Part shown: piece by piece, positions 14,101-63,500 of the stretch
How positions within the stretch are numbered: the stretch's first letter is position 1
How the letters are laid out: each line of letters starts with the position of its first letter
Assembly: GCA_947561395.2 (NCBI GenBank)
Contig: OX387187.1
Span: 43,383,253 to 43,447,252 of the forward strand
Length of the DNA: 64,000 bases
Source of the DNA: Buxus sempervirens
Taxonomy: Eukaryota; Streptophyta; Magnoliopsida; Buxales; Buxaceae
Direction of reading: 5' to 3'
Program-made: the position numbers and the translations under genes
Notes under the pieces: model-generated
What the model was told of the DNA's origin: nothing
Database searches by the model: none
The model's input: only the letters and a program-made list of their open reading frames with translations

Positions 14101-17100
14101 AGTCATCATCTTCTATTTTCCTTGATTGCTTGGGCCACAAAGGAAATATGCGTGTGTTTGTGTGTGTGTGTGCGCACACACGCATGCGTACGTATGTATA
14201 TATACGTGTATGTATGTAGATGTATATATTATTTACTTATTTTTTTGGTCAATGTATGCATATACTATTTCATCATTGATAAATATCTTTTCAATTAATA
14301 AATTTGACACTATTCCAAAAACCTTTGCACATTAAAAAGCAACATTCAACAGCAACTTTGAGGAAAACAATCACAACTTGCAAACAATGCATTGACCTTG
14401 TTATAAATGCATGTTGGTAGCATTCTAGGTGAACATTTACAGGTTTCAAGCAGGTTTGCAAGTCTGTAGAATTAGCAGGAGAAGACCTTGACCCAGATCT
14501 GTAGTAAAAATATTCAGGCTTCACTTAGTAATCAAGTTAATATTGAATTCAAGAGGGATTAAACTGTAGTTATACCTGTAAAATTTTCACAGAATACATC
14601 CGGAATGTGGAAAACAGTTCTCAAGATTAAGAAATGTTTTCCCTTTTCCAGGACTCAATCTTCCATTCTTATCACCAATGACTTATCCATCAAGTAAAAG
14701 GAAAATTTTTGTAGGAAGCAATTTAAAAAAATACCAGGCATATCTAAACTTAAAATGGATGGTTCTTACAGCACTTCTCGCAGCTCTAGACATGGTAGAT
14801 CTCCATTCCCTGTCTCCATAAATTGCAACTCTTTCTTGTGATAGCGTAAGTGAAAAATCCCTAGTGCAATGGCCATAGTGCCCAGGTGATTTCGCAGGGT
14901 ATTCTTTTTTGAGACTATACGAAATGCTGGTATCGTCATGAACAGCTTGAAAATGAACCTGCTCATCCTTAGAGACAGATATTCCTTTGCCAGGGATGAA
15001 CCAAACACATTGTTTCCAATGGTCACACCAATCTACATCACCTATTGAAGCATACAACCACTGTATTTCATTAATTGAACAAGCACGATAAGCATCTGAC
15101 TATGAAAATTCTGTGAAGGCTGTGCCTATTAATATAAAAAGTTGATGCTTTGTACTCTTACATACATGACAATCACACTAACATGAAATAATGAATTACC
15201 TGTACTTACCAGGACCTTGCATTTGTAACCCCGCTTCAAATGGCAAGCTTATCCATTTTGGGGCAGTGGAATAGAAGATAGTACCCTCAGAATCAAGCTG
15301 GAGTATCCACCTAAAACAAAATCAAAGTACTGCTGGAAAACTATTCTCAGACAAAAATACCAGAGAAACCAATCGCTACTGTACTAACATATATACCATG
15401 AAACTACAGCATGAACTCTACCATCATCAGTTATCTTTATATGTAGCTTGGTTTCCCCATGACTTTCTGGCCGTTTCCAAAATTCAATGTCAAAAATTTT
15501 GAAGGGTTCTGAAAGCTGGACAGATACTAGATTGAGCAGGAATTAGAGAACTTGTCATACCTAAGAAAGCCATTACTTCTAATAGTAATCGTGTTCATAC
15601 CAATTTTATCTCTTCTGATATTGCATCACAATGCATGGCATATTGCTGTGGTTTTACACACATAACTGTCTCTAATCCAGCTGGAGCAAGATGCACACTA
15701 TCAAATGCTTTGGCTTCGTAACTGGACAAATCATGCAGCTTCCATAAGAATGGGCTTTCAACCAGCTGATACAGAAAAAGAAAATAGATAAGGAAGAAGA
15801 ACCCATTACACCAGATACCCACTTGATATAGACACTGGTTACATAAAAAATTTCGCAGGGAGGCTTGGCTAGAACCTAAATTGGGTTAAAGGAGAAGATC
15901 AGGCTTCTCAACAAAGGCTTATCCATTGGTTATCCGGAGAAAATCCCTCATGAGTGTACACAGGCTTCTCAACAAAATTATACAAAAAACAATTTGACTC
16001 AGATGCAATAAGCTAACTCATGACAAAAACATTACCTGAACTTGGCACCGTCAAGTTACTTATATCTATATATATATAAAATGAAGATTGCAAAAGACGG
16101 TCACAATGAGAACTGTTACATGGAGCCACCAAAAGAAAAATACCACACATTGCTACCATAATGAAGAAGAAAGAGAGAACTCCGAAATTTTGATGATATT
16201 TCCTACCTTGATATTGCAAGGAACAAAAAATGTGTGCCAACAACGAACATGAAGAATCAAATCAACATCATGAATTACTGACACCATTGCATTGTTCATG
16301 CATAAAGTGATAATGCTTCTTGTTCGAACCTCATTTACAATTATTGCATATCAATCAGCTGGTCAATCTATTATTTTAAAGTTAATCACGCACTCATAAT
16401 CACAGTTAAGATAAAAATTAGAAGCCACATTCCTCATATGGTCAATATATCATATGATAAATTAAATCTGAATTACTAATAGTATATGAGATTTAATATG
16501 AAACACTAGAAACAACCCATACAATGAATGAAATTTGGAATGAATAAGAAAGATATCAGCTTGACTAAATCCTATGGGGCAGGGGAACCTCAGGAGACTT
16601 TCCCTTCCCAGCCTCGATTAGAATTTTAGCCTTTCCTATATTTTGAAACACAAACAAAATATAAAAAGAAAAAGAAAGAAGCGTCACAGTGACACCTGGC
16701 CATAAGTAGTTGCTCGATATGGTATAGTACACGGATTTTCCACCAATAGCATGTCATGAGCATGTTGCAGTGTTGGTATTAGTCCCTCACCTAATAACTC
16801 AGAGTCAAGAATCTCACTTACCTGAAATAAAGTTGAAATTGCTTCATGAAACCGAAAGCAACAAATCAGGATCAGTTAGCAAACATCAGATGACCATATA
16901 ATCAGATTAGAGCAAAGCATTTAGAGAGAGACTTTAAATGCAGAAGAAAAAATGATATAATAGTCTGGAGCTGCCTCACACATATTTGCAGGACTCCACA
17001 TAATACACGTCCCTTTTAAAAAATTTTGGCATCATGGAAGTTGAAATCAGTGTCTAAATGTATTATGCAATTTATGCATGAAAGCACTGATGACATTACA

Positions 17101-19548: not shown

Positions 19549-20117
19549 GAAAATGCGACGTCGAGCTTGCGATGAGATCCGAAGAGCGGCATAGCGGTCG
19601 AGCGGTCGACTCAACGGCAGCTGTGAGTTTCCTGGGTTTTAGCGATTTGAAAATGCGGGAAGGTCTCATGTACAGAGGGCTTGGGCTAAACGGGAACCGA
19701 GTAATTATAATGTCGTAACCAAGCAAGTCAATTAGGAGTCGTTTGTCCTCTGTTCCCAAACACATTTTTTCTTTTAAGCGTAATTTAAACATGTAAACGT
19801 GGCCCGGCCGGTTTAGGGTCCGATAGGAGGCCCGCTAATTTCAAATTGAGCAGAACCTGAATTCATAGACCCGGCCCAATCCGCCAACCTTGCAGCTCTG
19901 CAAAATCGAATTTCTTCCGACGGCAAAAACCCTAATGAAACCCTCCATGGAAGAAGACGAGAGACTGACAATAGTGACATAGCAAGTAAAAGGATTTACA
20001 GGTTTCAGTTCCTTAGGTGACTATTCTTTTTCATGGAACCATTGCTTATCGAGTCTCTTTGAAATATCAGCAGTCAGAGCAGTAGAAATGGCTTTACTTG
20101 AAGCTGTTTCTTGAAAA
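19549..20117. promoter_or_regulatory. Probable bidirectional promoter, PRMT7 / PPR gene
   Basis: The 569 bp between two divergent start codons hold a telo-box AAACCCTAA at 19927-19935 and site II-like TGGGC(C/T) words: TGGGCT near 19683 and GGCCCA near 19874. These pairs are typical of plant housekeeping and organelle-protein genes. No clear TATA box was seen on either side. Confidence 0.6.
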
Positions 20118-22418
20118 ATGTTACTTTTACTTCGCAATCTCCAGAGTATTGGACGGAGAAATTCGCTACGAGTAAGCATTCTTTGGTCGATACATACCAC
20201 AAAATCGCTAAATATCTTTAATGGTTCCTCCTTCAATGGATTTGTAAAACCTTCTCCATTGCCAACAGCCTTGTTTGTCTGCTTCACTGGTTTTCTTTAT
20301 TTGATTCGGTATCCATTTTCAACCGGAGCGAAGGGAGGAACTCTGGGAGAAGTTTTGGATAGAGATTCAATACGTAAGATTGTTCAAGAAGAACGGTGGG
20401 ACGATTGTAAGTTTGCCAATTTGTTTAGGTCAGTTTTAGCTCCAATTAAGGCTTCTAAGATTTTGATTGAGCTGAGTGAGGGTCCTCAATTAGCGTTGAA
20501 GTTCTTCAAATGGGCTGAAAGGCAAGAGGGCTTTCGCCACACGACAGAGTCGTACTGTATTCTTGTTCATATATTGTTTAAGGGTAAGATGTATTTTGAT
20601 GCTCAAGATATTCTGAAAGTTATGATTTCAACTAGACAGGTTCTGCCTGGTTCAGATGTTTTTGACATTTTGTGGTCGACTAAGGGTGTCTGCAATTCGG
20701 GTTACGGAGTCTTTGATGCTTTGTTTGGTGTCTTGACTGAACTAGGTTTGCTTGAAGAAGCGAGTGAGTGCTTCTCAAGGATGACGAAGTTTAAGGTTTT
20801 TCCGAAAACACGTTCTTGTGATGTTCTTCTTCACAGGCTATCCAAGTTGGGCAGGGCAGAGTTGTCAAGGAAGTTTTTCCAGGATATGGTTTCAGCAAAA
20901 ATATCACCATCAGTTTTTACTTACAATATAATGATAAATTTTATGTGTAAAACAGGAGATTTGAAGACTGCTAGAGTTTTGTTTGGTCAGATGAAGGAAA
21001 TGGGATTTACGCCAGACATTGTCACATACAATTCTCTCGTAGATGGACTTGGGAAGCTTGGGTTATTAGACGAAGCAGTCAGTATATTTGAGGAAATGAA
21101 GAAGGCGGGTTGTGATCCTGATGTGATAACATACAATGCTCTGATCAACTGCTTCTGTAAATTTGGAAGGATGCCGCAGGCCTTTAAGTATCTCCATGCT
21201 ATGAAGGAAAATGGGCTGAAGCCCAATGTTGTTACCTTTAGTACATTTATAGATGCTTTCTGCAAGGAAGGGATGATGCAAGAGGCACTCAAATTTTTTG
21301 TGGATATGAGAAAAATGGGTCTTAACCCAAATGAGTTCACATATACTTCTCTGATAGATGGAAATTTTAAAGCTGGTAACCTTGGTGAAGCTTTGGAGCT
21401 AGCTAATGAGATGGTGCAGACAGGAATAAAGCTGAACGTTGTTACCTACACAGCTTTAGTGGATGGCCTTTGTGAAGAGGGGAAGGTGGAGGAAGCAGAA
21501 AAGGTTTTCAGGTCAATGTTGAAAACTGGAGTTGCTGCTAACCAACAAATATATACAGCCCTCATCCATGGATATTTTAAGATAAAAAATATGGAGAAGG
21601 CCACAAGTTTATTAAGAGAAATGAGAGAAAAAACTACCAAACCCGACATAATGTTGTATGGAACCATAATCTGGGGTCTCCGTGACCAGGGCAAGGTTGA
21701 AGAGGCTAAGCTTGTAGTTGATGAAATGATGAAATCTGGTATGCAGGCAAATCATGTTATCTTTACAACACTCATGGATGCTTATTTTAAGGCAGGTAAC
21801 ACAACTGAGGCCCTCAATCTGCTGCATGAAATGCAAGACTTGGGTTTCGCTCCAACAGTAGTGACTTACTGTGCACTTCTTGATGGTTTATGCAAGTCAG
21901 GGTTGACCGTGGAGGCAACTTATCATTTTTCTAGGATGAAAAAGATTGGTCTTCGGCCTAATGTATTGGTCTACACAGCATTAATTGATGGTCTCTGTAA
22001 AAATAACTGCTTGGAAGAAGCCAACAAGCTGTTTGATGAAATGCTTGAAAAAGGTATAGCTCCAGATAAAATTACTTTTACATCTATGATGGATGGGAAC
22101 TTGAAGCATGGTAATCTTCAAGAAGCTTTTGATATCAGGGATAGAATGATTGAAAACGGCATAGAACTTGATCTACATGCTTATACTTCTTTAATATGGG
22201 GGCTTTGTCAAAGCGATGAAGTGCAGCAAGCAAGAAACTTGCTCAATGAGATGATTGGTAAGGGAATTTCTCCTGATGAGGCTGTATATAGGTGTCTGAT
22301 GAGGAAGTACCATGAGATGGGAAAGATGGATGAAGCTATTGGGTTACAAGATGAGATGGTAAGGAGGGGTTTAATCTCAGGTGTTGGGGAATCTTTTCTT
22401 TCAAGTGAACAAACTTGA
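20118..22418 (+). CDS. P-class pentatricopeptide repeat protein (At2g02150-like)
   Basis: A single uninterrupted frame of 766 residues. The N-terminus MLLLLRNLQSIGRRNSLRVS is basic and acid-free, as in mitochondrial presequences, and resembles At2g02150 as recalled. From residue about 196 to 755 there are sixteen consecutive 35-residue PPR motifs without gaps, for example VTYNSLVDGLGKLGLLDEA and VTYTALVDGLCEEGKVEEA. There are no E, DYW or other extra domains, so it is P class: an organellar RNA-binding protein for stabilisation, processing or translation of a specific transcript. The RNA target is unknown. The gene is intronless, as most plant PPR genes are, and shares a short promoter region with PRMT7. 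Confidence 0.95.
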   Translation: MLLLLRNLQSIGRRNSLRVSILWSIHTTKSLNIFNGSSFNGFVKPSPLPTALFVCFTGFLYLIRYPFSTGAKGGTLGEVLDRDSIRKIVQEERWDDCKFANLFRSVLAPIKASKILIELSEGPQLALKFFKWAERQEGFRHTTESYCILVHILFKGKMYFDAQDILKVMISTRQVLPGSDVFDILWSTKGVCNSGYGVFDALFGVLTELGLLEEASECFSRMTKFKVFPKTRSCDVLLHRLSKLGRAELSRKFFQDMVSAKISPSVFTYNIMINFMCKTGDLKTARVLFGQMKEMGFTPDIVTYNSLVDGLGKLGLLDEAVSIFEEMKKAGCDPDVITYNALINCFCKFGRMPQAFKYLHAMKENGLKPNVVTFSTFIDAFCKEGMMQEALKFFVDMRKMGLNPNEFTYTSLIDGNFKAGNLGEALELANEMVQTGIKLNVVTYTALVDGLCEEGKVEEAEKVFRSMLKTGVAANQQIYTALIHGYFKIKNMEKATSLLREMREKTTKPDIMLYGTIIWGLRDQGKVEEAKLVVDEMMKSGMQANHVIFTTLMDAYFKAGNTTEALNLLHEMQDLGFAPTVVTYCALLDGLCKSGLTVEATYHFSRMKKIGLRPNVLVYTALIDGLCKNNCLEEANKLFDEMLEKGIAPDKITFTSMMDGNLKHGNLQEAFDIRDRMIENGIELDLHAYTSLIWGLCQSDEVQQARNLLNEMIGKGISPDEAVYRCLMRKYHEMGKMDEAIGLQDEMVRRGLISGVGESFLSSEQT

Positions 22419-30334: not shown

Positions 30335-31708
30335 TACAAATAAGTATATTACACTACCAGTTCTTCAAAATTTGTAGGTGATACCACTATGCTGATGAGC
30401 TCAGCTTGAATATACGGATTACAAAGTTACCTGTACGTTTCGTTAAATGCTTGATCAAGCAACACTAGATTTAGCACTAAATTGTATGGACGTATTCTGA
30501 GGAAAGCTTTACAATCTTAAAAGGCTTAATGTCTTTTTCTGATATTTTTTTGAGCTGCTTTTGGTGCTGCTTAATTAAGTGCCTATTTTTACTTTTAACT
30601 TATTCAAGCAATTTTGATGCCGTAATTGAACTTGCCACTGGCCCGATCCATGGATAAAGGCAACCCATAAGGATAAGTTGTTTTGAATAATTGTTCTTTT
30701 TTTTTCCCCTTTTTTTTTAAATTTTAACGGCAACTCAAGCTATTCACAAAGTTTTAGCTAGAGGCAAACTGTTGAGCACACTCACTTTAATTCGTTGATG
30801 ACATATTCCAACTTAGGCCTTGGATATGAATATAACATGGCTTTACCACCTGTCCCAAGTGGAACTCTCTCGTCTTCTCATAACCTAGTTTTATACAAAA
30901 TCACTGAACCGTAGCATAAGTAGGGCAAAATGCAGCCTTGATATATGTAAAACGCGTGACATATAATTTTTATTGGATATAATACTACGTTGCACGTATA
31001 TGAAGCATCATAATTTCGAATTATTGCTTTTATATAGTATTTGTATTTTCTTTTCGCTCCTTATGTGCTTGTTGAAATGCAAAAATTTTTCTAATGAATC
31101 TTTTATTTTAGACATCCAAATTGAAATTTTTGGAGAAGTTCTTGGATTCTTGATGCACTTTCAAAAGGTTTATAATATAGAGCACAATACATAACATGGT
31201 GTTGTAAAAAGAAAAAAAAATTTTGAAATTGAAGTGGATGCTAGTAGCTCAGGCAATTTGAGGAGATCAAAATTAGTGGAGTCATCAAGAATGAAATTTA
31301 TAATAAACATAGCAGGTTAGACTTAAAATGCTATCTTATTAGAGATGCTAGAAAAATACTTGGAAGCGCATGCGAAGCATGTTAACTGATCATAATGATT
31401 ATTTATTTGGATATATATTATCTTTACAACTAAAAAAGAGAATGTCGGATCAGAATATTTTTATTAATATAAATATTGACTCAAATGAAAATAGTTATTA
31501 TACGAAGTTTGTAATTGGAAGCGACCACTTGGATAAGAATCCAGATAATGTGCCAAACACAATATTTGTTTCCCCAAATAACTTTATAATATTTTATTAA
31601 TTTGGTATTCTTATGTAGATCCTTTTTAGTTTTCAATTTCCAAAAATTACTCTTTTAACAAATTTCAAGCCCTTGGTGTCGGATGCCCAACAAAACTGTT
31701 AATATACC
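30335..31708. other. SPX3 3' flank, intergenic
   Basis: AT-rich. A 76-codon frame at 31370-31600 is Asn/Ile-rich and not recognised. No gene supported. Confidence 0.4.
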
Positions 31709-31855
31709 GGTTTATACAGCCACAATCTACAGCCTTGTATGCAGACGAAAGGAGATACTACCACGTGCCAACTTTATTTGCCTTCTTAAACGTGCACATT
31801 TGAACAAACGTTAACGTTTCGTTTAAGTTTCCGTCATCCTTCTTTTTGACCAAAC
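31709..31855 (+). repeat. Left terminal inverted repeat of the MULE
   Basis: Pairs with 36349-36501. Conserved blocks include CCACGTG, AACGTTAACGTTT and TTTTTGACCAAAC. Identity by eye is around 75-80%, so the insertion is not recent. Confidence 0.8.
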
Positions 31856-31936
31856 GAAGCCTCAGTCATTCATTAACAAAATTGGAGGGAAATGAAAATC
31901 AGTCATTCCCTCCATCCTTCTTTTTCTCTATCTACG

Positions 31937-32012
31937 CCTAGGTAGAAATGCTTGTCTCCGAGGTCTTACAGAGCCAATCGCCGAGGTAGAAATGCTTGTC
32001 TCTAGCCCAAAT
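31937..32012. repeat. Short direct repeat inside the MULE
   Basis: AGGTAGAAATGCTTGTCTC occurs at about 31940 and again at about 31985, some 45 bp apart, just inside the left terminal repeat. Confidence 0.75.
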
Positions 32013-34025
32013 GGTGTAGTTCACATTGGCCGTCTAGCCATTCTTCCCTCCGACAGTGATTCGAGTAGCAGATACTTCTGGTATTATCAGCACTACAGTG
32101 CATGCAACCACCAAAAGTAGTGTCGCCGGCCACGCAATACCTCGTGCCTGCGCCACCTCCATTTACTCCACAGAACTCTTCTCACGGCCATGCAATACCT
32201 AGTCCCTGTCTCCGAAGAAACCCCGCAGGAGCACACTGTTAGTTCCAAAATCATTTGTGTTTTCTTTTACATTTAAATTATCTGTTAAGTTTGAAATTTA
32301 GTGATGAAAATTTCCACACCAACTACCATTAATTGCACTTCGAAATTAATAGAAAGAGGGCAGTTTTCTTGTGGAATTTACATGAAGTCATTAACAGGTT
32401 TTTATTTGTGAAATAGAGTAAAGACCAGTAGTTTAACCATGTGAAAATTTCAAGATGTTATGGTCAGTAGTCAAATATGTTCTCATGTGTAAAAACAAAG
32501 GTCAGTATGTTCTCATGTGTAAACTTGGTTGTCTCTTATATTCTTTTTTGTGTCCTCTTGGTGGGGGATGTTACACATTTCGTGTACATCACCCATCTGT
32601 ATTTCTTCGGATCTTATCATTTTTATTTAACAAATATCTGAATATGGATTGTGTTTGTGAGGATATTTTGTGGGTTTCTAAATGATTGAATCAGAAATTT
32701 CAAGATTATGTAGATTTCTTATGTATGGGCATTGGTATATTGAAAGATACTGGTCTGGATTTCCCTACTTGAATAAATTGAAAATCAAGAAGAGTGATAA
32801 TTTGGGCAAGGTGGTTAGGCCAATGTCTAATTATTGTAGTTTCTTCTCAGTTTTTTATAATTTCATGATAGGTCTGGGAGTCAAATAGAATGTTAGGATA
32901 CGATGGAATGGGACTCTTGACTATATTGGGAATTAGGTACAGGAAAACATATATAAAAGAAATGGAAATCTCATTTTCTGAGTGTTGTTTGTTTAGTAGC
33001 TCCCTTTACGTAGAGGTTTTTTTTTTTTCTGTTTTCTTGGGGTGTGGGGGGGACGGAAGCGTCAGTAGTATGAGGTAGCTGTAGCAAATTTTTACTGATT
33101 AAAAGAAGAAACCAACAACAGAAAAGTGAAAGAGGGGAAGTGGGACCTCATACATGGTAGAAAGGAAGGGACTGTAAATGAGGTAAATAAAATATCTGAA
33201 ACCAAAAATATATAAAAAGATGCCATGAGGGTAGAGCACTAGCAAATAGTATGAGCATCTATAAGAAAGAGATTATTTAACCTGATAGAAGTTCAGGTTA
33301 ATTGTGATGCATGGTCAAATTAGTACTGAACTCCCAAAGCCACTGTTCATGGTTAAATTAGTGATTCTCTCTTTAATGTTTGAAGAAAAATTGAACCAAG
33401 AAAGATGAAATTTATTTGTCACCATTTTTCTGAATCTGTCAGGATTTGCATCATCTGCCAAGCAATTGTGGAGCACGACCATAGAGCCACCTTCATCGTT
33501 GGTTGATTGTTCCTATCATTGGTATTTGCTGCAAGGATTCGGTGGGCTAAAAAGCTGCCAGTACAGAACAAATGGCTCGAGCCATGCAAGAGGCATAAGA
33601 CAAATGGGAAACATAAAACTGCATGGACTGTGGAAGATGCCAACGCCTGTTAATAAACTCAGGATGGAGACCCAATAGACTGGCCAAACGAAACCACCAT
33701 ACAACAATTATGGCTACAATTGCTAAGAAAACTCACCTAAAAGGATTTAGAAATGAAACCTGTGACTACCCTCACTCAAAAACTTTTTGAGGGTCTACCA
33801 AACATAACCGCTTGTCTTCCGAACTGTAATCGATCACCAAAATGCCCACGTCCACTTCTTGCATTGTGACAACTCATCATAGTCTTGGCCATTTGTTTGA
33901 TGGGCAACAACCCAGAAATGAACATTCTTCCTTGTCCATGATATGATGTTGCAACCACCATCGTGGGTGGAGATAGAACTGTCTCAGCTCTTGTGCATTT
34001 ATAATGGGCAGTAGTGGTTACATAG

Positions 34026-34114
34026 GTGTACATCTATGCAAGTGCAAGACCAAGAAAGAAAAACTATTTATACATTTATAATAAGTGTACAGCTATGCAA
34101 GTGCAAGACCAAGA
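34026..34114. repeat. 59-bp spaced direct duplication in the MULE
   Basis: GTGTACATCTATGCAAGTGC with its following 11 bases, and the near-identical GTGTACAGCTATGCAAGTGC copy, begin at 34026 and 34085. This lies just past the 3' end of the GRF zinc-finger gene. Confidence 0.8.
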
Positions 34115-34179
34115 AAAATACAGTAATCCAACATATCAGTAGAAATTGTTTTGTGCATTGAGGAACCTAAAACTACAAA

Positions 34180-34702
34180 TTACATAAGTTGAAAAAATAG
34201 CATAGCAACTATTAATATAATTCCTACAATCAAGAGTAATTTTAACCCATCCACATCCTTGCGCAGACCCATTAATTGCGCTTCAATGGACTTTAGCACA
34301 TGCAGCATCTCATCAATCCTTTCCATTCGTGGATTGATATCTTCACACATGCTGTCATTGCAAATTGTCAAATTTGAACTCATAACTTCATCCATACAAC
34401 TAGAATCTCGAGTAGGAGTAGGTGCTAATGGATGACACCAATCAAAGAAATCACATGCAAGCCTTGAAGTTGCAACCTATAATTGTAAAAGAATTCTAAT
34501 AAGTAATCTATCATTAATATTGGATACTAATGAATTCAACCCAAAATAAATTGCCACTTACCAATGCGTTTCTTGCACACGTGTAAAAAAGTTTGTTTGG
34601 GTCACTGGTCGTCGATATTTTTATAATTGCCTTCTTTTTACAGAAGCAATTTTTGCTTTCATATTTTAGATCATCTAACCAATTGTTACCTAAAGAAGTC
34701 AT
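34180..34702 (-). CDS. GRF-type zinc finger, coiled coil and membrane anchor protein inside MULE
   Basis: Two exons, 34702-34562 and 34476-34180, join in frame across a GT..AG intron (GTAAGT donor) to give 145 residues. Residues 19-61 form a GRF zinc finger: CFCKKKAIIK, then FYTCARNALVATSRL, then ACDFFDWC. The spacing C-x-C ... FY-x-C ... C-x-FF-x-W is the family pattern; GRF fingers bind single-stranded nucleic acid. A helix with heptads follows, MERIDEMLHVLKSIEAQL, and the protein ends in one transmembrane segment, LLLIVGIILIVAMLFFQLM. Small plant proteins of this layout are common and uncharacterised. The start at MTSLGNN is the first ATG after an acceptor at about 34704. A non-coding first exon ending at GTGAGT near 36183 beside the right terminal repeat is possible. 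The frame is whole despite lying inside a transposon. Confidence 0.8.
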
Positions 34703-35107
34703 ACCTACAACAAATTTATTGAGATGCAACTTAGTAAAATTCAAACTAAAAGCAAAACATGAAATAGATCAAAAGCTAATAACCAATTTTGAAATGATGT
34801 AACCATGAAATAGATCAACATGGGCATGTAACAACTTATGTCTGATGAAATATCCCTACATTGTTTGATGATTTCAAAAGAATAAAACCATCAAAATTAA
34901 ACATAAACAACCATTGTTTCCTCCAACTAAGCTTCAACATAAACAACCACTGTTTCCAGCTTGTTAATTATTCAGGTATGGAAAAGAACTGATCTACTAT
35001 AGATGGATTAAAGTCTTCCATTTCTTAATCAGAATGACATTTTCAACTGTTATCATATTAGTTGTTAATTATTGCTCTATAATATATATCCTGAGGTAGG
35101 CTTGCTT

Positions 35108-35202
35108 ATTGGGCCGGCTCGGGCACGGCACGCCCCCTGCCGGGCCTGGGGGCCTCGGGCCACGGCACGACGGGCCACGGCACGTCGGCACGCGCGCCAG
35201 CC
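35108..35202. repeat. GC-rich GGCACG/GGGCC repeat tract
   Basis: About 95 bp of GGCACGGCACG, CGGGCCACGGCACG and CGGGCCTGG words in otherwise AT-rich DNA inside the MULE. It looks like a fragment of another GC-rich transposon end, not a gene. Confidence 0.6.
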
Positions 35203-36348
35203 CAGAGTAAAGAAATGTTGTGCTGGCATTGAGTAATCTTATTCTTTGATCTCCTCTTTCCAAAAGGAACCATGAATGGTGGTTATAATCACATATGATC
35301 TGTACTTATTTGGAGACAAACTATAGTGGGGCCCCTTTAACCCAATCAAATCAAAAAGTCATGGGGAAATGGAGCCCCTATGGTCAAGCACTACCACTAG
35401 GTTAGATGCAACGTGTAAAGCTTACATCATTGTAGTTGGTTTGGGTAAATGTGGCATCGGCCTCTCATATCCAGGCTCACCAAATTTAAACAAAAAGAAA
35501 TTAGGGTTTGGGATGTCTAGAGTACAGAAGGAATACAAAGAGAATTGTAAATTGTTTTCTACTACTCAAAGGCTAAAAGAGAAAGCTTACAAATGTTACT
35601 GATCAAATGGGTCTCTTTTGGTCATGAAATCAAAGGGTACTGATTGACATGAACAAGATCATAGAATGATGCTACAACCTGATCATTTGCATTGAATCAT
35701 CAAGGACAAAAACACACAGAAAGTGTAGAAAAAGAAGAGTAGAAGGAAATAAAATTTAAAAAAAAAAACCACAAAAACACAAACAAATAAGTACACGAAA
35801 TTTTGAAAACAATGAAGAACAATCCGTCACACTTGCAAAGTTACAAACTTGTAAAATCAGAAGAAAACCTTAATCCCCATCCTTTTTCTTTAGTCTTATT
35901 CACGATAAGGAAAAGAGTATGCAATACTATCAAATAACCCAACAAGATAACAGCGCCAAAGAAAATAAGGCAACTCTACCTCCATCCAAATCCATATCCT
36001 AATTAACTAACCGATAACTTTGAAACTTAGAACAGAAACAGCGATTTGGATTTCGCTATTACAAATTTACAACCATTTAAATATACGCCCCATTATCCTT
36101 CTCCCAAATTGACATAAAAAACAAAAACATAAACAAAAAGGATGGGGATTAAGGTTCTCTTTTGCAAAATCAAACTCACCGCTGTTTATGCCGCGATTCA
36201 GTGCCTATCAGGACAGCCCGTCTGGTGTAGAGAAAGAAATAGCTTGTAGAAGAGAAAGTGAAAAAGAAGACATAATAAAAGAGGAAGAAAGAAAAGGTCA
36301 AGTTTTGTCAGAAAAAGTAAAATTTAAAATTTGAAATTTGAAATTGGA

Positions 36349-36501
36349 GTTTGGTCAAAAAGAAAAATGACGGAAACGCACGCTTCGGCAAACGTTAACG
36401 ATTGTTTTATTCGCACGTTTGAGGTTGCAAATAAAATTGGACACGTGGCAGTATCTCTTTTCGCTTGCATACAAAGCTGTTGATTGTGGGTGTATAGTCC
36501 C
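36349..36501 (-). repeat. Right terminal inverted repeat of the MULE
   Basis: Inverse partner of 31709-31855. It carries CGTTAACG, CACGTGGCAGTATCTC and GATTGTGGGTGTATAGTCC. Confidence 0.8.
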
Positions 36502-36532
36502 GCCTTCTGTTAGTATACCGTGAGTATAAAAA

Positions 36533-36932
36533 AACTTAATTTTTAGTGGTATTTTATTAAAATATTTAATATTTAGTTGAAAAAGTTTTGAGTTTTAACT
36601 TTTAATAAACCTTTATCAAAATAATTAATTTTTAATGCTATTTTACTGTTTCAAATAAATTCTTCCAAAAATACCTTTATACAACTTACTTCCGGGACTT
36701 GTACAAGCCATTTTAAACTTGTACAAGCAATAAAATGACTTATACCTTAAATAAGTGACTTGTACAAGTCATTTGGATGAGTGATGTAAGGGCATTCTTG
36801 GAATAATTGATTTGTAATAATGAAATGACATTAAAAATTAATTATGTTGATAAAGTTATGTTAAAAGTTAAAACTCAAAACTTTACCAACTAAATCTTAA
36901 ATATTTTGATAAAGCACCACTAAAAGTTAATT
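36533..36932. mobile_element. 400-bp foldback MITE next to HINT4
   Basis: The left half (from CTTAATTTTTAGTGG at 36535) matches the complement of the right half (ATTAACTTTTAGTGG) over roughly 150 bp. Shared blocks include AAAATATTTAA, ATTTAGTTG, AAAGTTTTGAGTTTTAACTT and AATAATTAATTTTTAATG or near copies of it. Almost the whole element can fold on itself. It starts about 30 bp after the MULE end and finishes 48 bp before the HINT4 start codon. Target duplication not resolved. Confidence 0.85.
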
Positions 36933-36980
36933 CTCTCTAAATAAAAGGGCCGAGGATGGTGGAGCTGCAGGGGCGGAGCG

Positions 36981-39867
36981 ATGGCGGGAGCCGAGACGTG
37001 CTTGTTCTGTCAGATTGCGCGTTCGTCCACTTCTACTACTCTTCTCCACTCTGTCTGATATCTCTTTCCTCAATTCCATTCTTTCCGTTTTTGATTTTGT
37101 TTTTTGGTTTTTTTTTTTTGCCAATCTCTTTCTAACAGTTAATTCATCAAATAAATTCGTAAACCTCTTTGGATTTCTTGCAGGATGATAAGGTCGTTGC
37201 ATTTCGCGATATCAATCCTTCTGCATTCAGGTTTGGAATTTAGTCATCTCGGTTTTCTTATTTCTTCATGTAGGAAAATTGAGATCTCAATTAATTACGG
37301 AATGGGTTAAAAAGGAAAAACGTTTCTTCGTAGCATTTCTGTTTGTCGAACCAAATTCATGCTCTGTTGCGTGTTTTGAGTTGATTGAAATCCTAGAATT
37401 TGATGTAGTTGATGTTTTAATCATATATACTGATACTTAATCAGTTTGGGCTAGTTAATTGAATTGATTGATGAAGTAAGAGCCATATCATGATCAAGAA
37501 AGACATCGTTTAAATCCCGAAGATGTTTGAAAAGATTAAGGCAATTTTCATGTTGTTCCTCCGTTTTAGCATTAGCAAATTTTTGAATCAGCAGAAGGGA
37601 ATGGAAGACAATGGAATCGTTAAGATAGATGTATGTGTTAGTCATGAAGTCTCTGCTGGTCTCTAGACTGGATATAACAAGGTCGTTGTTTTGGCTATAC
37701 TCAACTTCAATCAAGGTCTCAACAATTAATTTACAAGGTGTGTAGCGGGGGGTTGGGGAGGAACATCATGGTGAAGGGAAGAATGGCTTGGGATTGACTA
37801 GAGCTTGAAAGTTCAGACCCTCCAGAATTTAAATTGGTTCGATTTGGTCTCACATGGGTTATTATTTCACAGGTCAAGATGTTTATCTTCCTATAAACCT
37901 CAGTCTAGTAAGGTGGCCACTGTATTAGATTTTTTATTCGAGCCATGAAAACTGGTTTCACTGTTAAAACACTGGAAGAATAAAAGAAATCTTTCCTATC
38001 CTATTCAAAACTGCGAATGCAGTAGGCTTATACTTGAAATTTTGGCCCCTTTTTGAAAAACTTGGACCTCCTGCCAGGCTTTCCAACTATTTACTGCAAA
38101 AAGTGTTTGATTGTTTCTTATCTTTCAAATCGTCTTTTTTTTATTTACAACTCTTGAATATTTTGACCAATTATAGAAATTAGATAAATAACTTTGTTCT
38201 GGTCATTGCTGAAAATAATTTAATTCATAAAAGGCTTTTGATTTCTCGATCAGATCAAATATATACTTACTCTTCCTGGTTATTTGGAAGCTAGCACTTC
38301 CTACTCCTAATTCATGTCCTCTCCAGTTCTACACCTGTTTTGTGCAATTTCAATCTCAGAATTATGCTTCTAAATAGTTTTTCTCTTTATTTTTCACTAA
38401 GATTTTTGGTTTGTTAATATAAGTTATTTCCACTGTATAAGTTAATGGTGTAATCTGATTTCTGTTTCTACATCTTTGCTTAAAAATCTTACCTGTTTTG
38501 TAGTTTTTCCTGTAGCTTCCCATTTTCAATTTGACAAATTGACAGGCATTATTTGGTAATTCCCGTGGAGCACATATCAACTGTCAGAAACCTCAGCAGG
38601 AGAGAAGAAGATTATCTTTTGGGTAGTTAAAACATACTAATGAAAAAACAATCAAATTTTAACTGAACTTGTTGGTCAATTTCAATGGCTTTGTTATGTT
38701 GTTACTTCGATGCAGTTAATCTCCAATTTTCATATCTTCTCCAGTGAGCCACATGTTGACTGTGGGGAAAAATCTTCTACAAAAAGATGCACCTGAGTGT
38801 AAGGAATACAGGTATCGAAATTAAAATGAAGAACATATTTTCCTCATCAAATTGATGCCTTAAAATTGTAATTTTATTTGCAGAATTAGATTGGTTTAGA
38901 GCAGGTATCTTCACCCATATGCGGTTCCCAAACAAGTTTTTTATTGATAGATATGTCTGTTGATGCAATTAATTTAGTCTTCCAAGGATGCACTTTCATG
39001 CTGGAAGTGCCTATAGTGCTCCATATTCTTTGAAGTTCCCATTTTTTTAAAAGAATTGTGCAAATGGTAGTCTTTATATTGAATTATATCTATCTAATTT
39101 TACTTTTTATGATGAGAATTTCGCTTTTATTTTTACCAGTATACGCCTATTGTTAATGCTATTGAGATCCAGAGTGAAGATATGGCAATGGAATTCAGGG
39201 CTGTGCGGTTGTTGGTCCCAAAAGAATAGCTAATGTCTCTGTCAGTCTATTTTGTTCATGACTTTGGCCAAATCAAGTTATTGATCATTGATTTTGCGAG
39301 CTTTGAGATATAGTGGTTTCTGATAATATAGCTTCCATTATGCCAGTGTGAAACCTGTTATAGTGAAATATGGTTGAGAAAGTAACATGAATACATAATA
39401 TATACTTGCATGATGATACATATGCAAAGTTCAAATGAGGTTCGGTGGCTTGTTGGAACTTAAATTCGAATCTCCTTTTTCTCTTTCTATTGCTGTATAA
39501 AATTTTTTTAATTACTAGGAATGTGCATTGTGTCCCATCTGTATGTGTTCCATGTTGCTCTTTTTGCAGATTCGGCTTTCACCGGCCACCATTCAATAGT
39601 GTTAACCATCTCCACCTACATTGTTTTGCACTCCCCTTTATTCCTAGGTAAATTTTTTTTTATTTCTGACAATTATCCACACTTGAATAGTTAATTTCAT
39701 TTTTATCTTTTTGAGGCTCTGTCTAAATTTGCCCTTTAAAGTATGCATACAAATCCCTGTTTTGATTCATAAATATCTTGAACAGATGGAGACATTTAAA
39801 ATACATGTCTCTTGGACCCCTTGGATTTATTGAAGCTGATAAGTTATTGGAGAAGATAAAGCCATAA
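36981..39867 (+). CDS. HINT4: HINT4, histidine-triad adenylylsulfatase / APS phosphorylase
   Basis: Six exons, 36981-37052, 37184-37230, 38546-38622, 38745-38811, 39570-39647 and 39786-39867 (stop TAA), join in frame to give 140 residues. N-terminal CLFCQIA, DDKVVAFRDINPSAFRHYLV and IPVEHISTVRNL are the HIT fold. The active-site triad is HLHLHCF in FGFHRPPFNSVNHLHLHCFA, followed by the plant HINT4 tail KYMSLGPLGFIEADKLLEKI. Arabidopsis HINT4 (At4g16566) hydrolyses adenosine 5'-phosphosulfate to AMP and sulfate, or phosphorolyses it to ADP. The tail has one Gly where the Arabidopsis protein, as recalled, has two. The first intron has a weak donor (TCT|GTCTGA). There are only 48 bp between the upstream MITE and the ATG. 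An overlapping upstream ATG lies at 36956. Confidence 0.93.
39140..39229 (+). pseudogene. Exon-like fragment in HINT4 intron 4
   Basis: After a good acceptor (TTTTTACCAG) comes a 29-codon frame, YTPIVNAIEIQSEDM then AMEFRAVRLLVPKE, ending in TAG. Composition looks protein-like and it has no place in HINT4: the phase needed after HINT4 exon 4 gives a different frame. I do not recognise the source. It may be a captured last exon of another gene, an alternative exon, or chance. Confidence 0.35.
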
Positions 39868-42755: not shown

Positions 42756-43483
42756 TTCTCAATCACACGGCCAAAAACCATAACTTTAGATTTTTTATAC
42801 AAGAGACTCTCATACTTACAAAAATGCCCCTCGTACAGTTCCTCCGAATCCTTGGGCAGGGGGTCGTGGAGCTGGTGTTTTTCAATAAGAAAGGTCTTTT
42901 CACATTTTTCTTATTGGAAAAAACATTGGCAGTGAGATGCTGTACATCAGTACATAGCGTGGTCAAGTAGTATCATCTATTATTGGAGGAAGTAGAAGAA
43001 GATTTCAATCATATTTTATTATTTGAAACTTTAGCTTTAAGATAGGGAATAGAGTACTTAAGTATACGAGTAAGATTAAAAGTATGGTCACAGGAGTACT
43101 CTTAGGCATCACGAATGCTTTAAAAGGGAAGCTCAAAGCCCATGGTACTTAGCTTTAATTATAGACGAGATAAAGTTGGTGATCCAGAATTAAACAGTCA
43201 CTGCAGGGTCCGACCTCCACCAAACAGATGCTCTCCGAGCTAATTAAATTTGGCCATGATTATCATGAATTGATTAATGTGGCTATGAGCTGCCCTCACG
43301 ATATTATTAAGTGAACTAACATTAAACCCAGGAGCCAGAAACTTCGACCCCTCCCACCCACCTCCTTTAAAAACCCATAAAACCCCCCTCTGTCTTCCTC
43401 TGTCTCGCGTCTCTGCAACAAATTCAAACCACTCTTTCAATTCAATCAAGTTGAAAGCTCCGTCCTTGCTCAATTCTGAATTC

Positions 43484-44983
43484 ATGGCGTCCTCTCTATG
43501 TTTTCTCTTCCTTGCTATCTCACTTCTACAGCTCTCTACTTCACTCTCTCAGATTGTACTACCGCTCACGCACTCACTCTCACATAACCAATATAACAAC
43601 ACTCCCCACCTTCTCAAGTCCTACTCTGTTCGTTCCACCGCCAGATTCTACCACCATCGCCACCTCCACCACCACCGCCGCCACCGGCAAGTGTCTCTAC
43701 CACTCTCCCCTGGTAGCGACTACACGCTGTCGTTCTCCCTGGGCTCTGACCCAGTTCAAACCGTCTCATTTTACATGGACACTGGAAGCGACCTTGTCTG
43801 GTTCCCCTGTGCTCCATTCGAATGTATTCTCTGCGAAGGCAAATACGACACCACCACCAACGGCCCCGCCACAACCCTTCCGAATATTTCCTCCACCGCT
43901 CTGGTTTCTTGCAGTTCCCCTGCATGCTCTGCTGCTCACTCATCCCTCCCTTCCTCCGACCTCTGCGCCATCGCTCGTTGCCCTTTAGAAACAATAGAAA
44001 TCTCTGAGTGCGCTTCCTTCGCTTGCCCTCCATTTTACTACGCTTACGGCGATGGTAGCTTAATTGCTCGCCTGTACCAAGACACTCTCTCCATACCCAT
44101 GTCGTCTCCGTCACTCCGACTACGCAACTTCACCTTTGCTTGCGCCCACACCGCACTCGCAGAGCCAATCGGAGTCGCCGGATTTGGCCGAGGCGTACTC
44201 TCTTTGCCGGCACAGCTCGCCAATCTCTCTCCCCAACTCGGTAACCGCTTCTCATACTGTTTAATCTCTCATTCCTTCGATGCCAATCGAATTCGTCGCC
44301 CGAGTCCGCTCATTCTGGGTCGTTACTCTCTCGACGAGGAAAACCAGAGCCAAGTAAGCAACGGAGAGGGTGAGTTCATGTACACTCCAATGCTTAATAA
44401 TCCCAAACATCCCTACTTCTACAGTGTCGGACTGGAAGGAATCTCCGTCGGAAAGAAGAGAATCCCGGCGACGGAGAATCTGAAAAAGGTCGATAAAGAA
44501 GGGAACGGAGGAATGGTGGTGGACTCCGGCACGACCTTTACGATGCTTCCGCCGGGACTTTATAACGCAGTGGTGGCCGAGTTCGACAGCCGAGTCAGAC
44601 AGGTTTATAAGCGAGCGAAGGAGGCTGAGGACCAAACCGGAATGGGTCCGTGTTATTATTTCGATGACGTGGCAGCAGGTGCAGCGAAGGTGCCTAGGGT
44701 GGCGCTGCACTTTGTCCCGAACGCCAGCGTGGTTCTGCCCAAGAGAAACTATTTCTATGAGTTCGTCAAGGGTGGCGATGCAGGGAAGAAGAGCCGGAAC
44801 GTGGGGTGCCTGATGATGATGAACGGTGGAGATGAGGCGGAGTCTGGTGGTGGGCCCGCGGCCACCCTCGGAAACTATCAGCAGCAAGGGTTTGAGGTGG
44901 TTTACGATTTGGAGAAACATCAGGTTGGGTTCGCCAGGAAAAAGTGCGCCGTCCTTTGGGAGAGTCTGAACCGCTCGCGCTAA
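43484..44983 (+). CDS. Secreted pepsin-like aspartyl protease (At4g16563-like)
   Basis: Single-exon gene of 499 residues; ATG 43484 opens a signal peptide, MASSLCFLFLAISLLQLSTS. It is an A1 family protease of the atypical or nucellin-like plant type: first catalytic motif DTGSDLVWFPC at residue 99, flap region with FYYAYGDGS, second catalytic motif VVDSGTTFTMLP at residue 347, and the C-terminal KCAVLWESL. Cysteines are plentiful in the first half (CAPFECILC, CSSPACSAAH, CAIARCPLE), as in this group. There is no plant-specific saposin insert. A His/Arg-rich run FYHHRHLHHHRRHRQ lies in the short pro-part before the mature domain. It probably acts in the apoplast or secretory path; substrate unknown. 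A CT-rich leader and a TTTAAAAA box precede the start. Confidence 0.93.
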   Translation: MASSLCFLFLAISLLQLSTSLSQIVLPLTHSLSHNQYNNTPHLLKSYSVRSTARFYHHRHLHHHRRHRQVSLPLSPGSDYTLSFSLGSDPVQTVSFYMDTGSDLVWFPCAPFECILCEGKYDTTTNGPATTLPNISSTALVSCSSPACSAAHSSLPSSDLCAIARCPLETIEISECASFACPPFYYAYGDGSLIARLYQDTLSIPMSSPSLRLRNFTFACAHTALAEPIGVAGFGRGVLSLPAQLANLSPQLGNRFSYCLISHSFDANRIRRPSPLILGRYSLDEENQSQVSNGEGEFMYTPMLNNPKHPYFYSVGLEGISVGKKRIPATENLKKVDKEGNGGMVVDSGTTFTMLPPGLYNAVVAEFDSRVRQVYKRAKEAEDQTGMGPCYYFDDVAAGAAKVPRVALHFVPNASVVLPKRNYFYEFVKGGDAGKKSRNVGCLMMMNGGDEAESGGGPAATLGNYQQQGFEVVYDLEKHQVGFARKKCAVLWESLNRSR

Positions 44984-51720: not shown

Positions 51721-52253
51721 GGTACTGTTCATGACATTAGCTTATAGCACACAAAAAGGTTGTCCATCGATGAAGCCAATTTGTGGAAGAGAATATTTGA
51801 ACATAACCGTTGCAACCACTAACTTCTTTAAAGCTTTCTGGGCTTGTTGAAACCATACGAGCATTTATTTGTGGCCTCTTTTAACTATTGTTATGTGTTT
51901 AAGAAATTTCATCAAGCAGAAGATTTTCTATAATTGCTTTTGAGGGGTTGAAAGAAGTTTTTACCTAGGTACAAGACTGAGCTAAGAGGTTAAGGGATTT
52001 TCCATTTCATACAAGAAGTTGATTTATTTCCTCCCAATTGTATCTGTAAAAGGTACTTTGTGAATGAATTTTTTTTTATTGTATTGGGCTTCCATAATTC
52101 ATGTTATTTATGTTGCCTTGGGAAAGTTTTCATTATTGTAGTTACTTTCCTGTCTGCTTGAGCTTCCTAATAAAAATTTTGAACTATTAATCTTTGTTGA
52201 GAAATGAAGAACATGGCTTATATGCATTGAAACTTCAATGCTTGATCCAGGGA

Positions 52254-53234
52254 ATGGCACTATTAGCTTGGCGTCCATATGTAATGGCAACTCTTACTGC
52301 TCAAAGGGTCCATTGTCCAAGGTTCTTGGAATCATGGAAATCCCAAAGATCACCACATGGACTCATCTTTCCACATTTTGGCATTAAATATGGTCCTCTT
52401 TGCTGCACGAAATCGTCCTCCTGGGAGCCTGCCCCTGTCACTTATGCTGCTGATGACACTGATGATACATTCCTCAAGAGAAGTGAGAATATTTTTGAAT
52501 CTTTGAATGCTGAAGACACAAGTGATGCTTCAGTTACAGTTAAAAATGATAGCGCTGAAGATACGGTTGATCAGCCATCCATGCAGTTTCAGCTTCTTAA
52601 GTGGCCTATGTGGCTTCTGGGTCCTTCTGTCCTGCTTGCCACAGGGATGGTACCGACGTTGTGGTTGCCCTTGTCTTCTGTATTCTTGGGTGCTAATGTT
52701 GCTAGCCTGTTTTCCTTGGTGGGGCTTGACTGCATCTTCAACATCGGTGCAACCTTATTTCTCCTCATGGCTGATGCTTGTGGTCGGCCAAAGAACCCAA
52801 CAGAAGCATGCAACAGCCAGGCTCCTCTGATTTACAGGTTCTGGAATGTAGTCGCCAGCGTAATGGGTTTTGTCATCCCTTTGATAATGCTCTTGGCATC
52901 ACACAAAGGCCTTCTCCAACCGCAGCTTCCTTTCATATCGTTTGCTGTTCTACTGCTTCCCTATCTGCTGCTTCTGTCAATACAGATGCTGACGGAGATG
53001 CTAACATGGCACTGGCAGTCACCGGTATGGTTGCTAACCCCAGTTGTGTATGAAGCTTACCGGGTGTTGCAGCTGATGAGGGGTTTAAAGCTGGGGGCCG
53101 AGATTGGTGCACCAATGTGGGTGGTGCATACGATCAGGGTGCTGGTGTGTTGGTGGGTCCTGATACTGGGAATGCAGCTAATGAGGATTGCTTGGTTTGC
53201 TGGATTAACTGCTCGAGCTCGTCGGCACGCTTGA
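52254..53234 (+). CDS. Plant multi-pass membrane protein, probably plastid-targeted (At1g48460-like)
   Basis: 326 residues from ATG 52254; the coding part has no intron. The sequence GATCCAG just before GGAATG is a likely acceptor of a 5' UTR intron. The N-terminus MALLAWRPYVMATLTAQRVH is basic, Ser/Thr-bearing and acid-free, like a chloroplast transit peptide. An acidic linker follows (residues about 65-110, AADDTDDTFLKR). From residue 117 on there are about five hydrophobic spans: WLLGPSVLLATGMVPTLWLP, SLFSLVGLDCIFNIGATLFL, VASVMGFVIPLIMLLA, ISFAVLLLPYLLLLSIQML and VHTIRVLVCWWVLILGMQL. The Arabidopsis relatives At1g48460 and At5g63040 are, as I recall, uncharacterised. Function unknown. The reading frame itself is certain; the family name is from memory. 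Confidence 0.8.
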   Translation: MALLAWRPYVMATLTAQRVHCPRFLESWKSQRSPHGLIFPHFGIKYGPLCCTKSSSWEPAPVTYAADDTDDTFLKRSENIFESLNAEDTSDASVTVKNDSAEDTVDQPSMQFQLLKWPMWLLGPSVLLATGMVPTLWLPLSSVFLGANVASLFSLVGLDCIFNIGATLFLLMADACGRPKNPTEACNSQAPLIYRFWNVVASVMGFVIPLIMLLASHKGLLQPQLPFISFAVLLLPYLLLLSIQMLTEMLTWHWQSPVWLLTPVVYEAYRVLQLMRGLKLGAEIGAPMWVVHTIRVLVCWWVLILGMQLMRIAWFAGLTARARRHA

Positions 53235-60500: not shown

Positions 60501-63500
60501 ATTATGATTATTATTTTTTTTGAATTCTTTTCCAATAGCTGGTACAACATACTTCTATTTGATTTACTAGTGTATTTATCTCTAACTTCGGGATGTAGTG
60601 TGATGTGTTAACATTTGGTCTACTGTTTTAATGTATTTTCCTCTGTTCAAGATTCTTGCTAAAATTGCCAGTAGAATTGAAAAGACACGAAGTGGCTTTT
60701 CATGGGATGATGGTAGCACTAGAAAGGACTTTCTGATTGGCTGTTTTTATATAGGGATAAGAATCAAGGAGGTCAGCCCTTACTCTCTTCTAGATTCCTG
60801 GCCTCTTTAATCGGTCTTTGACCACTACATATCATTTTTGGTCTTGTATATAGTCACATCAATACTAATACTGATGCTAATCTGTATCAATATCGGACAA
60901 TATTTTAAATCATGCTTACAATCATGACCCTGGACTAGTAGATCAAGATGAACTTGTTTCTTTGCCTAAGCTCTTAGATTATGTATTCCTTGATTCTAAT
61001 TAGGTTATTATTTATTTTGGACACTCAATTGCAGCCCCCATAATCATGCTCCTTCGATTTCCAAAATGTAGATGATTCCATTCTTGTGAGGAAGATGCTC
61101 TGAAAGCTCACACTTTTCCCTGAAGGATCTTGTTTGGAATGTAATTCCGTTATAATTAACTTATAATTTCCATTAGATAAGGAAGTACCAAGTTATATCT
61201 CCTTGGATATATTCTACCATGTCCTTACTTCAAGGATGAGTTAACCATTTTTCATTCACTACATGTTGCTCAAGAGATTTGAAGCCCCTTTTGTGCAAAA
61301 TATGAAAAAGCCCTTAAAAAATCTGCTTTCCATTTCTGCCAAATAGTCGAAGGAAGCATAGCAAGCCAGCCCCTGTTCCAATTCAAGATGAGAGTTCAAC
61401 TTTTCCAGAGGGTGGAAGTCTTTTCAACTTGTAACTCCACTTTCCAGTTGTATATCCTGGTTTATGGTCCACCTGTTGATACCAATGCCCGGATTACTTG
61501 TCTTTGAAGTTATTGAAGTTGTTTTGGTGATGTCAGGATAAGCTGTTTGCTACATCAACAGACTTTTTTATGCACCACGAAAAACAGAGACTTCCTTAGT
61601 GGAAGTTCCAAAGAAATACTACTCACTCCCCATTTTTCCTTGGCCATACTATTTGTAAGGCTACTGGCTATTTTTGGCACATGGGAAATAGAAGTGAAAG
61701 AGCAAGACAAACAAACAAATTGTATGTCTCTTAGAGCACTCACAGGCTGCCAACCAATATACCGAGGGATAGTCTCCTTTCACTTCCAAAGAATGAGATC
61801 CTTCTCATCAAGTCACTGTGATTGCATGCCCATCCCCAATTGGCCTCAAAAAGCATATGCACTGTATTATCTCTAAAATGCATCCAATCCTATGCAGCTC
61901 AGATTATTAAGGGAGGAGCCATCTAAATTCACCTGAAGTAGCCCGTCCCTTGGGGGCTCCAAGCCAAACAAAATCTCTTTATCTTATAAGAGGAACATCA
62001 TTATATAGTGATGAAGCTCATCTTGGTTTGATCCTGCTTGAGATCAACCCAACACTGAATCAAGATTATTAACGGTCATCCCAAAACCAATCTGAATTGA
62101 ATTGGAAACTGTCTTCCCCAATTCTGTAATTGAACCAAACTCAAATGAAAAACCAACCAAACCAACCCAAATTATAAATTCAGTTCGTTTTGTGTGGTTA
62201 GGTAAATTTAACTCAAATTAATACTAATTTGTATCATAATTGTTGTCTGTTAGCTATGTGTTGTAATATAATATATGTCAGATATCATATGGTATCATAT
62301 CATATAATATTTTATGTATATATAATTGGTTTGGTTTGTTTCAGTTTAGAATTTGGTTTTACCAAGGCTTCAACCAAATCTGAACCCACCTAATCCGGGT
62401 TATTTTTTTTTTTAATCAAAACTGAACCAAATATGTTATAACCCAACCCAAACCGATTTTGGTCAATTGGTTTTCAGGTCTAAGCAGCCCAAGTAACATT
62501 AGAGAATTTCAATAATGGGGTCAAGAAGGTTATCTCTATCTTGCTCATGTTATAATGTGGGTCACATTGGGGAGCAAAAAAAGGATATTTAAGGATTTGA
62601 GGTTTGGGACACATTTTATCATATCACTGAGAAAGTTCTGTTTGTTATGGCTCAATATGCCTATACCATGGATATTTTAAATGTTTTTCTCAACCTTTCT
62701 TAGATGTTTAAATGTTTTTGGCTTGGGAATGAAGATGATACAAAGCTCCTATGGTTTTTTTGCGGTGAAGTTGTACTTTGTTTGTTGTCCTTTGAAATTC
62801 CTAGGCCATCAAGGATTAGAGGTGTTTTCAAGGACCGTGATATTCATGCTTTTAGGGCCTATCAGAAAGAGGGATGCTATTAGACCTAGATGTGTGATTT
62901 GAAATGGATCTTATTGAGGCAAAATCTTTGAGCTACCTACATTAGAGTTATTCTTGGAGGCTGGCTTAATTGGATGGGTTATCTTGGTTTATGGTTCATG
63001 TGATGAAAACCACGTTCATGAGAGTACCTCATTGTCCAACAACTTGATTGACTGGGTAGCTAAGGGTGGCTGTTATGAGTTTCTATATTGATTCATTGAA
63101 GGGAATTCCTTTGGAGGAGATATAAAGGATGGTTTAATATAATATGTAATCTTATTACCAATCAGAAAAAAAAAATGGTTTAATCCATTGTTGTTGAGGA
63201 GTTCTTCCTTTTTTCAACTCTTCTCTCATTTATGTTTTTCATTTTCTTGCACTTCTTCTACCCTTTTTATTTTTGGGTTTAGCTTAGCCTGTTATCTGTT
63301 ATCCCTTTCTACCTTTCATAAACTTTGTTTATCGTTCTCTCCTTGTATAAAATTTTCATTATTCACAAAATAAATCTCATATTGAAATACTATACCAATG
63401 ATGTACTTATTTTTCTTTTAGCAAAATGAGTTGCATGTTTTCCCCTGGATTATATGCTATGTTTCTCTTACTGCTTTTGGTCCTTATAACTCTTTGTTTT

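Follow-up and report, generated by a model that had tools for sequence, protein, structure and literature searches.

Second genes are known from Mutator-like elements (MULEs), among them mudrB of the maize element MuDR and VANC of the VANDAL elements. Gene cargo in such elements is likewise already known: gene capture by MULEs is well documented, and passages of PMC8277862 call protein-coding captures rare and quote a Pack-MULE capture size of 305 bp. According to parts of PMC3310237, the terminal repeats of MULEs hold promoters from which the interiors of Pack-MULEs are expressed. KI-MULEs with their KIU genes, described in sections of PMC13317346 and PMC2528002, are high-copy, non-TIR elements in which a host-derived and still readable ULP1 domain is oriented opposite to the transposase gene.

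The locus described here shares with Pack-MULEs its long terminal inverted repeats (TIRs), a likely 9-bp TSD, an interior in which no transposase domain was found, a probable gene fragment inside and a position close to a gene's 5' end. Unlike in Pack-MULEs, one of its cargo genes appears nearly whole, readable and intron-containing. Its TIRs are 83% alike, in contrast to 87-95% for the outer repeats of a tomato Pack-MULE family in five table rows of PMC3310237. As in the KI-MULEs, a putatively host-derived domain is still readable inside a MULE, yet this domain is a GRF zinc finger, present in one copy and in an element in which a transposase was not found, which sets it apart from the KI-MULE features given in those same sections (PMC13317346, PMC2528002). 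A gene that runs inward from a terminal repeat is a layout also found in MuDR, from which the locus differs in that no transposase gene was found.

We analysed a 64-kb stretch of DNA, referred to as the window. Judged by the kinds of genes it contains, it looks like gene-rich plant nuclear DNA with ordinary genes. Pfam matches located PPR repeats (20115-22418), the start of an SPX domain (28022), an aspartic protease (43289-44983), a DUF7733 match below the cut-off (52191-53234) and LUC7 (63402-63932). A weak sub-cut-off match to PRMT_C, an arginine methyltransferase domain, was seen in the minus-strand frame 14683-15099 (E 0.0072). Rfam and tRNA scans of the whole window returned no matches. 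To the right of the element lies the start of a plus-strand HIT-domain (HINT-like) gene (36981-39600), with the start codon at 36981. A 106-residue peptide of this gene, joined by eye, matched DcpS_C (E 1.4e-27) and HIT (E 4.8e-10) in Pfam, while in the plain translation of 36500-39500 in three frames no Pfam match was found. The region upstream of the HIT gene holds both the MULE and a MITE-like foldback. The latter lies at 36536-36930, between the right flank of the MULE and the HIT gene, is 77.9% alike to its reverse complement across 403 columns and has a relative of about 59 bp at 7564-7624 (76-78% alike).

The element, which looks worn, is bounded by an inverted repeat (31713-31855 and 36349-36496) and spans 4.8 kb. 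The two arms aligned over 149 columns, 7 of which contained gaps; 118 of the 142 ungapped columns were identical (83%, 24 mismatches), corresponding to a K2P distance of 0.19 and a BLAST E value of 5.5e-29. The arms thus have the length of about 100 bp or more that characterizes TIR MULEs. The original prediction had placed terminal inverted repeats around the gene, which is borne out by this alignment. It had further put their difference at roughly one fifth; the repeats do differ, but by 17% of the ungapped columns. Within the window no third copy of the repeat was detected, either by BLAST (E up to 1e-3) or with a two-sequence profile (E up to 10) that was cut at the chosen ends 31705 and 36506, and the pattern of the terminal repeats was found in none of the viral contigs.

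A direct repeat, CTGTTARTATACCG, occurs at 31696-31709 and at 36507-36520 with 13 of 14 positions identical and a single difference. Read as a 9-bp TSD it comprises CTGTTAATA on the left (31696-31704; the direct repeat reaches on to 31709) and CTGTTAGTA on the right (36507-36515; reaching on to 36520), which agree at 8 of 9 positions. This TSD is flush only if the left terminal repeat is taken as 31705-31855 on the plus strand, with clear similarity starting at 31713, and the right one as 36349-36506 on the minus strand, with clear similarity up to 36496; at the ends 31705 and 36506 the outermost bases agree poorly. A flush direct repeat therefore requires a right end about 5 bp further out than position 36501, where it had been drawn before. 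The TSDs of MULEs measure about 9-11 bp and adjoin the ends; the long terminal repeats and the likely 9-bp TSD indicate a member of the Mutator superfamily.

Six-frame translation of 31690-36510 was searched against Pfam at E values up to 1. No transposase domain was found, as is expected of a Pack-MULE. The sole match was to the start of a plastocyanin-like (phytocyanin) domain on the minus strand (E 0.0094). It falls at 31935-32140, where the initial portion of the domain comes after a hydrophobic leader. Scored separately after trimming by eye, the fragment reached 20.7 bits against a Pfam cut-off of 20.8 (E 4.2e-4) over 21 profile positions. Its reading is broken, first by one in-frame TAG and then by a local tandem duplication (31935-31958 and 31979-32002). 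Among solved structures no phytocyanin was hit: the fragment returned three unrelated rows (E 1.3-1.4) and a shorter form of it none. Because of these two structure searches we keep the identification at high rather than full confidence. As far as can be judged from the sequence, the stretch is very probably the N-terminal fragment of a phytocyanin gene and a second gene in the element. This observation is new to the present analysis and was absent from the original prediction.

Further features were noted in the interior. Between the two cargo genes, the region 33400-34000 has a raised GC content (41-44% in 200-bp bins); it matched nothing in Pfam at E values up to 1 and may be a further captured fragment. 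Immediately 3' of the stop codon of the GRF gene, 34022-34134 contains two 54-nt copies that are 81% alike and 59 nt apart. A GC-rich island (61%) at 35060-35220, unlike its surroundings, is perhaps a fragment of another repeat. Finally, an inverted repeat at 35858-36164, with 35-nt arms that are 91% complementary and 237 nt apart, is perhaps a nested foldback element.

The GRF gene lies on the minus strand. Its frame is intact and consists of two coding exons, 34702-34562 and 34476-34180, which together comprise 438 nt including the stop codon and encode 145 residues. The first exon (34562-34702) provides the start codon and the cysteines C19, C21 and C42 of the GRF finger; the second (34180-34476) provides C55, the motif FFDW (residues 57-60), a linker, a coiled coil, a C-terminal membrane helix and the stop codon. 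The intron between them (34477-34561, 85 nt) interrupts the finger and is of the GT...AG type, with the donor GTAAGT and the acceptor ATTATAG. Further upstream, an acceptor, TTGTTGTAG, ends 2 nt ahead of the ATG, and a plausible donor, GTGAGT, follows position 36180. From these sites a 5'UTR exon ending at 36180 and a first intron of 1475 nt (34705-36179, GTGAGT...TTGTTGTAG) are plausible. The proposed exon (within 36180-36348) would be pyrimidine-rich and directly interior to the right terminal repeat, and the foldback-like inverted repeat at 35858-36164 would fall within the proposed intron. The two-exon frame 34702-34180 had been predicted originally; its length of 145 residues, the good splice sites and the rise of the GRF score after joining are in agreement with it. 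The accompanying idea of a first exon near 36183 is likewise supported, in the sense of a possible predicted transcript that starts beside the right terminal repeat.

The zinc ligands of the GRF family PF06839 are CxC or CxxH followed by two single cysteines, and its name-giving core is G-R-x-F. The spliced protein matched this family with 21 bits (E 3.6e-4), below the curated Pfam gathering score of 25.9; the match covered profile positions 2-42 of 45 and residues 18-61. Splicing raised the score: exon 1 alone gave 15 bits (E 0.028) and exon 2 alone no GRF match. When the unspliced element, whose finger is split by the intron, was searched in six frames, GRF was not reported at E up to 1. When the protein was shuffled with the cysteines fixed, none of 7 shuffles matched GRF at E up to 10, while 3 of the 7 weakly matched other families (best zf-TAZ, E 0.066). 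All four zinc ligands, C19, C21, C42 and C55, are present in order, as is FFDW. Residues 36-39 read N-K-L-F, however, in place of the G-R-x-F core. Since the match is below the cut-off and the core differs, the original description of a "whole GRF signature" was overstated and is rejected in that form; the four cysteines and FFDW remain of it. A weak second Pfam row over the tail of the protein, DUF6476 (E 0.42), was set aside.

The membrane helix was located by hydropathy. The best 19-residue window, residues 127-145, scored 2.97, compared to a highest value of 2.77 in 2000 shuffles; the predicted helix is single, hydrophobic and situated at the extreme C terminus, as in a tail anchor. For the coiled coil, about 315 choices of register, start and length were compared; the best was the 28-residue stretch 101-128, in which all a and d positions are hydrophobic. 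Folding exon 2 alone from its single sequence yielded, in the best of five models, one helix over residues 41-97 of the exon (mean pLDDT 71.8, pTM 0.32; the other four models 57.0-63.4), with pLDDT in ten-residue blocks between 52, where the helix starts, and 93, in its membrane portion. The hydropathy, the a/d pattern and this model agree with the coiled coil and C-terminal transmembrane helix that had been proposed. The order of finger, coil and helix is that of the plant GRF zinc-finger/membrane proteins (PF06839), which we take to combine a CxC...C...C finger containing FFxW with a coiled coil and a C-terminal hydrophobic helix; the likeness is to this presumed layout. Unlike those proteins, the present one scores below the Pfam cut-off and has N-K-L-F instead of G-R-x-F.

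Relatives of the gene were searched for at several levels. With tblastn the window yielded no further GRF-like frame, apart from a single row at E 1.0 that was taken as chance. In non-plant collections, 7 stretches of viral contigs and 48 stretches of prokaryote genome contigs fitted the pattern of the spliced protein, none of which was confirmed, and one plasmid record (E 0.9) was taken as chance. GRF was found in none of 14 control genomes, a set uninformative for this question. Among solved structures the spliced protein gave no GRF match and two unrelated rows (E 0.69 and 1.5).

Taken as a whole, these data favour, with modest confidence, a Mutator element of a non-autonomous, Pack-MULE-like kind into which gene DNA was taken up. 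The inverted and direct repeats, the missing transposase match and the second, broken gene fragment suggest this, as do the introns of the GRF gene, its score gain on splicing, the lack of a GRF match in all 7 shuffles and the position of the insertion beside the 5' end of the HIT gene. The inverted repeats, the near-perfect flanking direct repeat and the GRF gene inside also support the originally proposed Mutator-like element with gene cargo. Against the Pack-MULE-like reading speak the short sub-cut-off phytocyanin match of 21 positions and the ends that are not flush with the direct repeat, as well as the GRF gene itself, which is nearly whole and in this exceeds most Pack-MULE captures.

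In the sequence of events that we propose, the Pack-MULE-like element would have landed some 0.5 kb upstream of the HIT start codon. The host DNA that it would have taken up comprises a 5' portion of a phytocyanin gene, broken today, together with a small gene with introns that encodes a GRF/coiled-coil/tail-anchor protein and is still readable; for both cargo genes we infer capture from the host. Uptake would have occurred as DNA and not as mRNA, since the GRF gene keeps its introns. Transcripts of this gene would begin within or next to the right terminal repeat, a possible promoter, and extend leftwards through the 1.5-kb 5'UTR intron. The protein, if made, would be coiled-coil and tail-anchored, with the zinc finger pointing towards the cytosol or nucleoplasm. 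In other proteins this type of finger binds nucleic acid.

The GRF-membrane gene could instead be a standing accessory gene of this MULE lineage, comparable in placement to mudrB or to VANC and KIU in VANDAL elements; the present copy would then have lost its transposase as its left half underwent capture and decay. We consider this unlikely, although several features point towards it. From the right terminal repeat the gene points into the element, and its likely first exon lies right next to the inner edge of that repeat; this layout corresponds to that of the convergent MuDR genes as given in parts of PMC3310237. Its frame is unbroken while the neighbouring phytocyanin fragment is broken. 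In addition, the sections of PMC13317346 on ULP1 describe a captured domain that became a conserved MULE gene in eudicots. On the other hand, one copy is in hand, no transposase was matched at E up to 1, and no other GRF-like match occurred in the window beyond the chance row at E 1.0. A search of the open-access literature under the words GRF zinc finger and Mutator-like found no paper containing both, which is not proof; one paper in which GRF zinc finger and transposon co-occur mentions them apart, and GRF is not mentioned in PMC6446971.

A resident host GRF gene might also have become enclosed by related MULE ends that inserted separately, or by the ends of a longer chimera, and would then be no cargo at all. 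On the right side a gap separates the direct repeat from the clear end of the terminal repeat, and 8 of 3000 random pairs of equally long window stretches shared a 13-mer with one mismatch or none (pairs less than 200 bp apart were scored as misses). The terminal repeats moreover differ by 17%. These points would fit independent insertions, but the ends are opposed at a distance of 4.8 kb, are similar in length, represent the only two copies found in 64 kb and are both flanked by the direct repeat, such that we regard this explanation as quite improbable. That the GRF frame is a pseudogene or a chance reading without product is very improbable: its codon usage is undistinctive, its GRF score lies below the curated cut-off and the G-R-x-F core is absent, yet finger, coil and membrane helix follow in order across a spliced frame whose exons join at good splice sites.

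The age of the cargo bears on how its readable state is to be understood. Whereas the two LTRs of a retrotransposon derive from a single template when it inserts, the ends of a MULE do not, and they need not start identical. The five tomato Pack-MULE rows of PMC3310237 show 87-95%, although section 3.2 of that paper takes low terminal-repeat identity as a sign of age. In our view the terminal repeats are a poor clock, and for this reason the original statement that the frame outlasts its own transposon is unsupported; the TSD differs at one position, and the statement was rejected for want of a valid date. We simulated neutral decay with 2000 runs per setting, not counting splice sites and assuming an indel rate of 0.12 per substitution. 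At 0.10 substitutions per base the frame stayed open in 13.8% of the runs with substitution alone and in 0.25% with indels; at 0.03 substitutions per base the values were 53% and 17.75%. These numbers would imply selection only on the premise that the terminal repeats serve as a clock, which we reject. The codon usage of the GRF frame ranked 85th among 251 stop-free runs of at least 60 codons, in a test that was trained on two genes of the window only (PPR and aspartic protease), whose own frames were also among the 251. As this test failed to discriminate, codon usage says nothing on selection. The readable state of the GRF frame reflects either late capture or selection.

Proteins with a GRF finger, a coiled coil and a tail anchor might be MULE accessory products, encoded by a second gene driven from the terminal repeat; a nucleic-acid-binding finger tethered to a membrane, e.g. 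the nuclear envelope or the ER, would then help the element, and many plant GRF-membrane genes would be its scattered or captured descendants. We judge this to be decidedly improbable. A MULE origin of these abundant genes has no support beyond the present copy, and the probable broken fragment of an unrelated phytocyanin gene fits general capture at least as well as a dedicated accessory gene. The ULP1 case, as presented in sections of PMC13317346, suggests that captured genes can join an element's own survival kit. A second case of this kind, in which a membrane anchor carries a nucleic-acid-binding finger, would, if true, open a new role.
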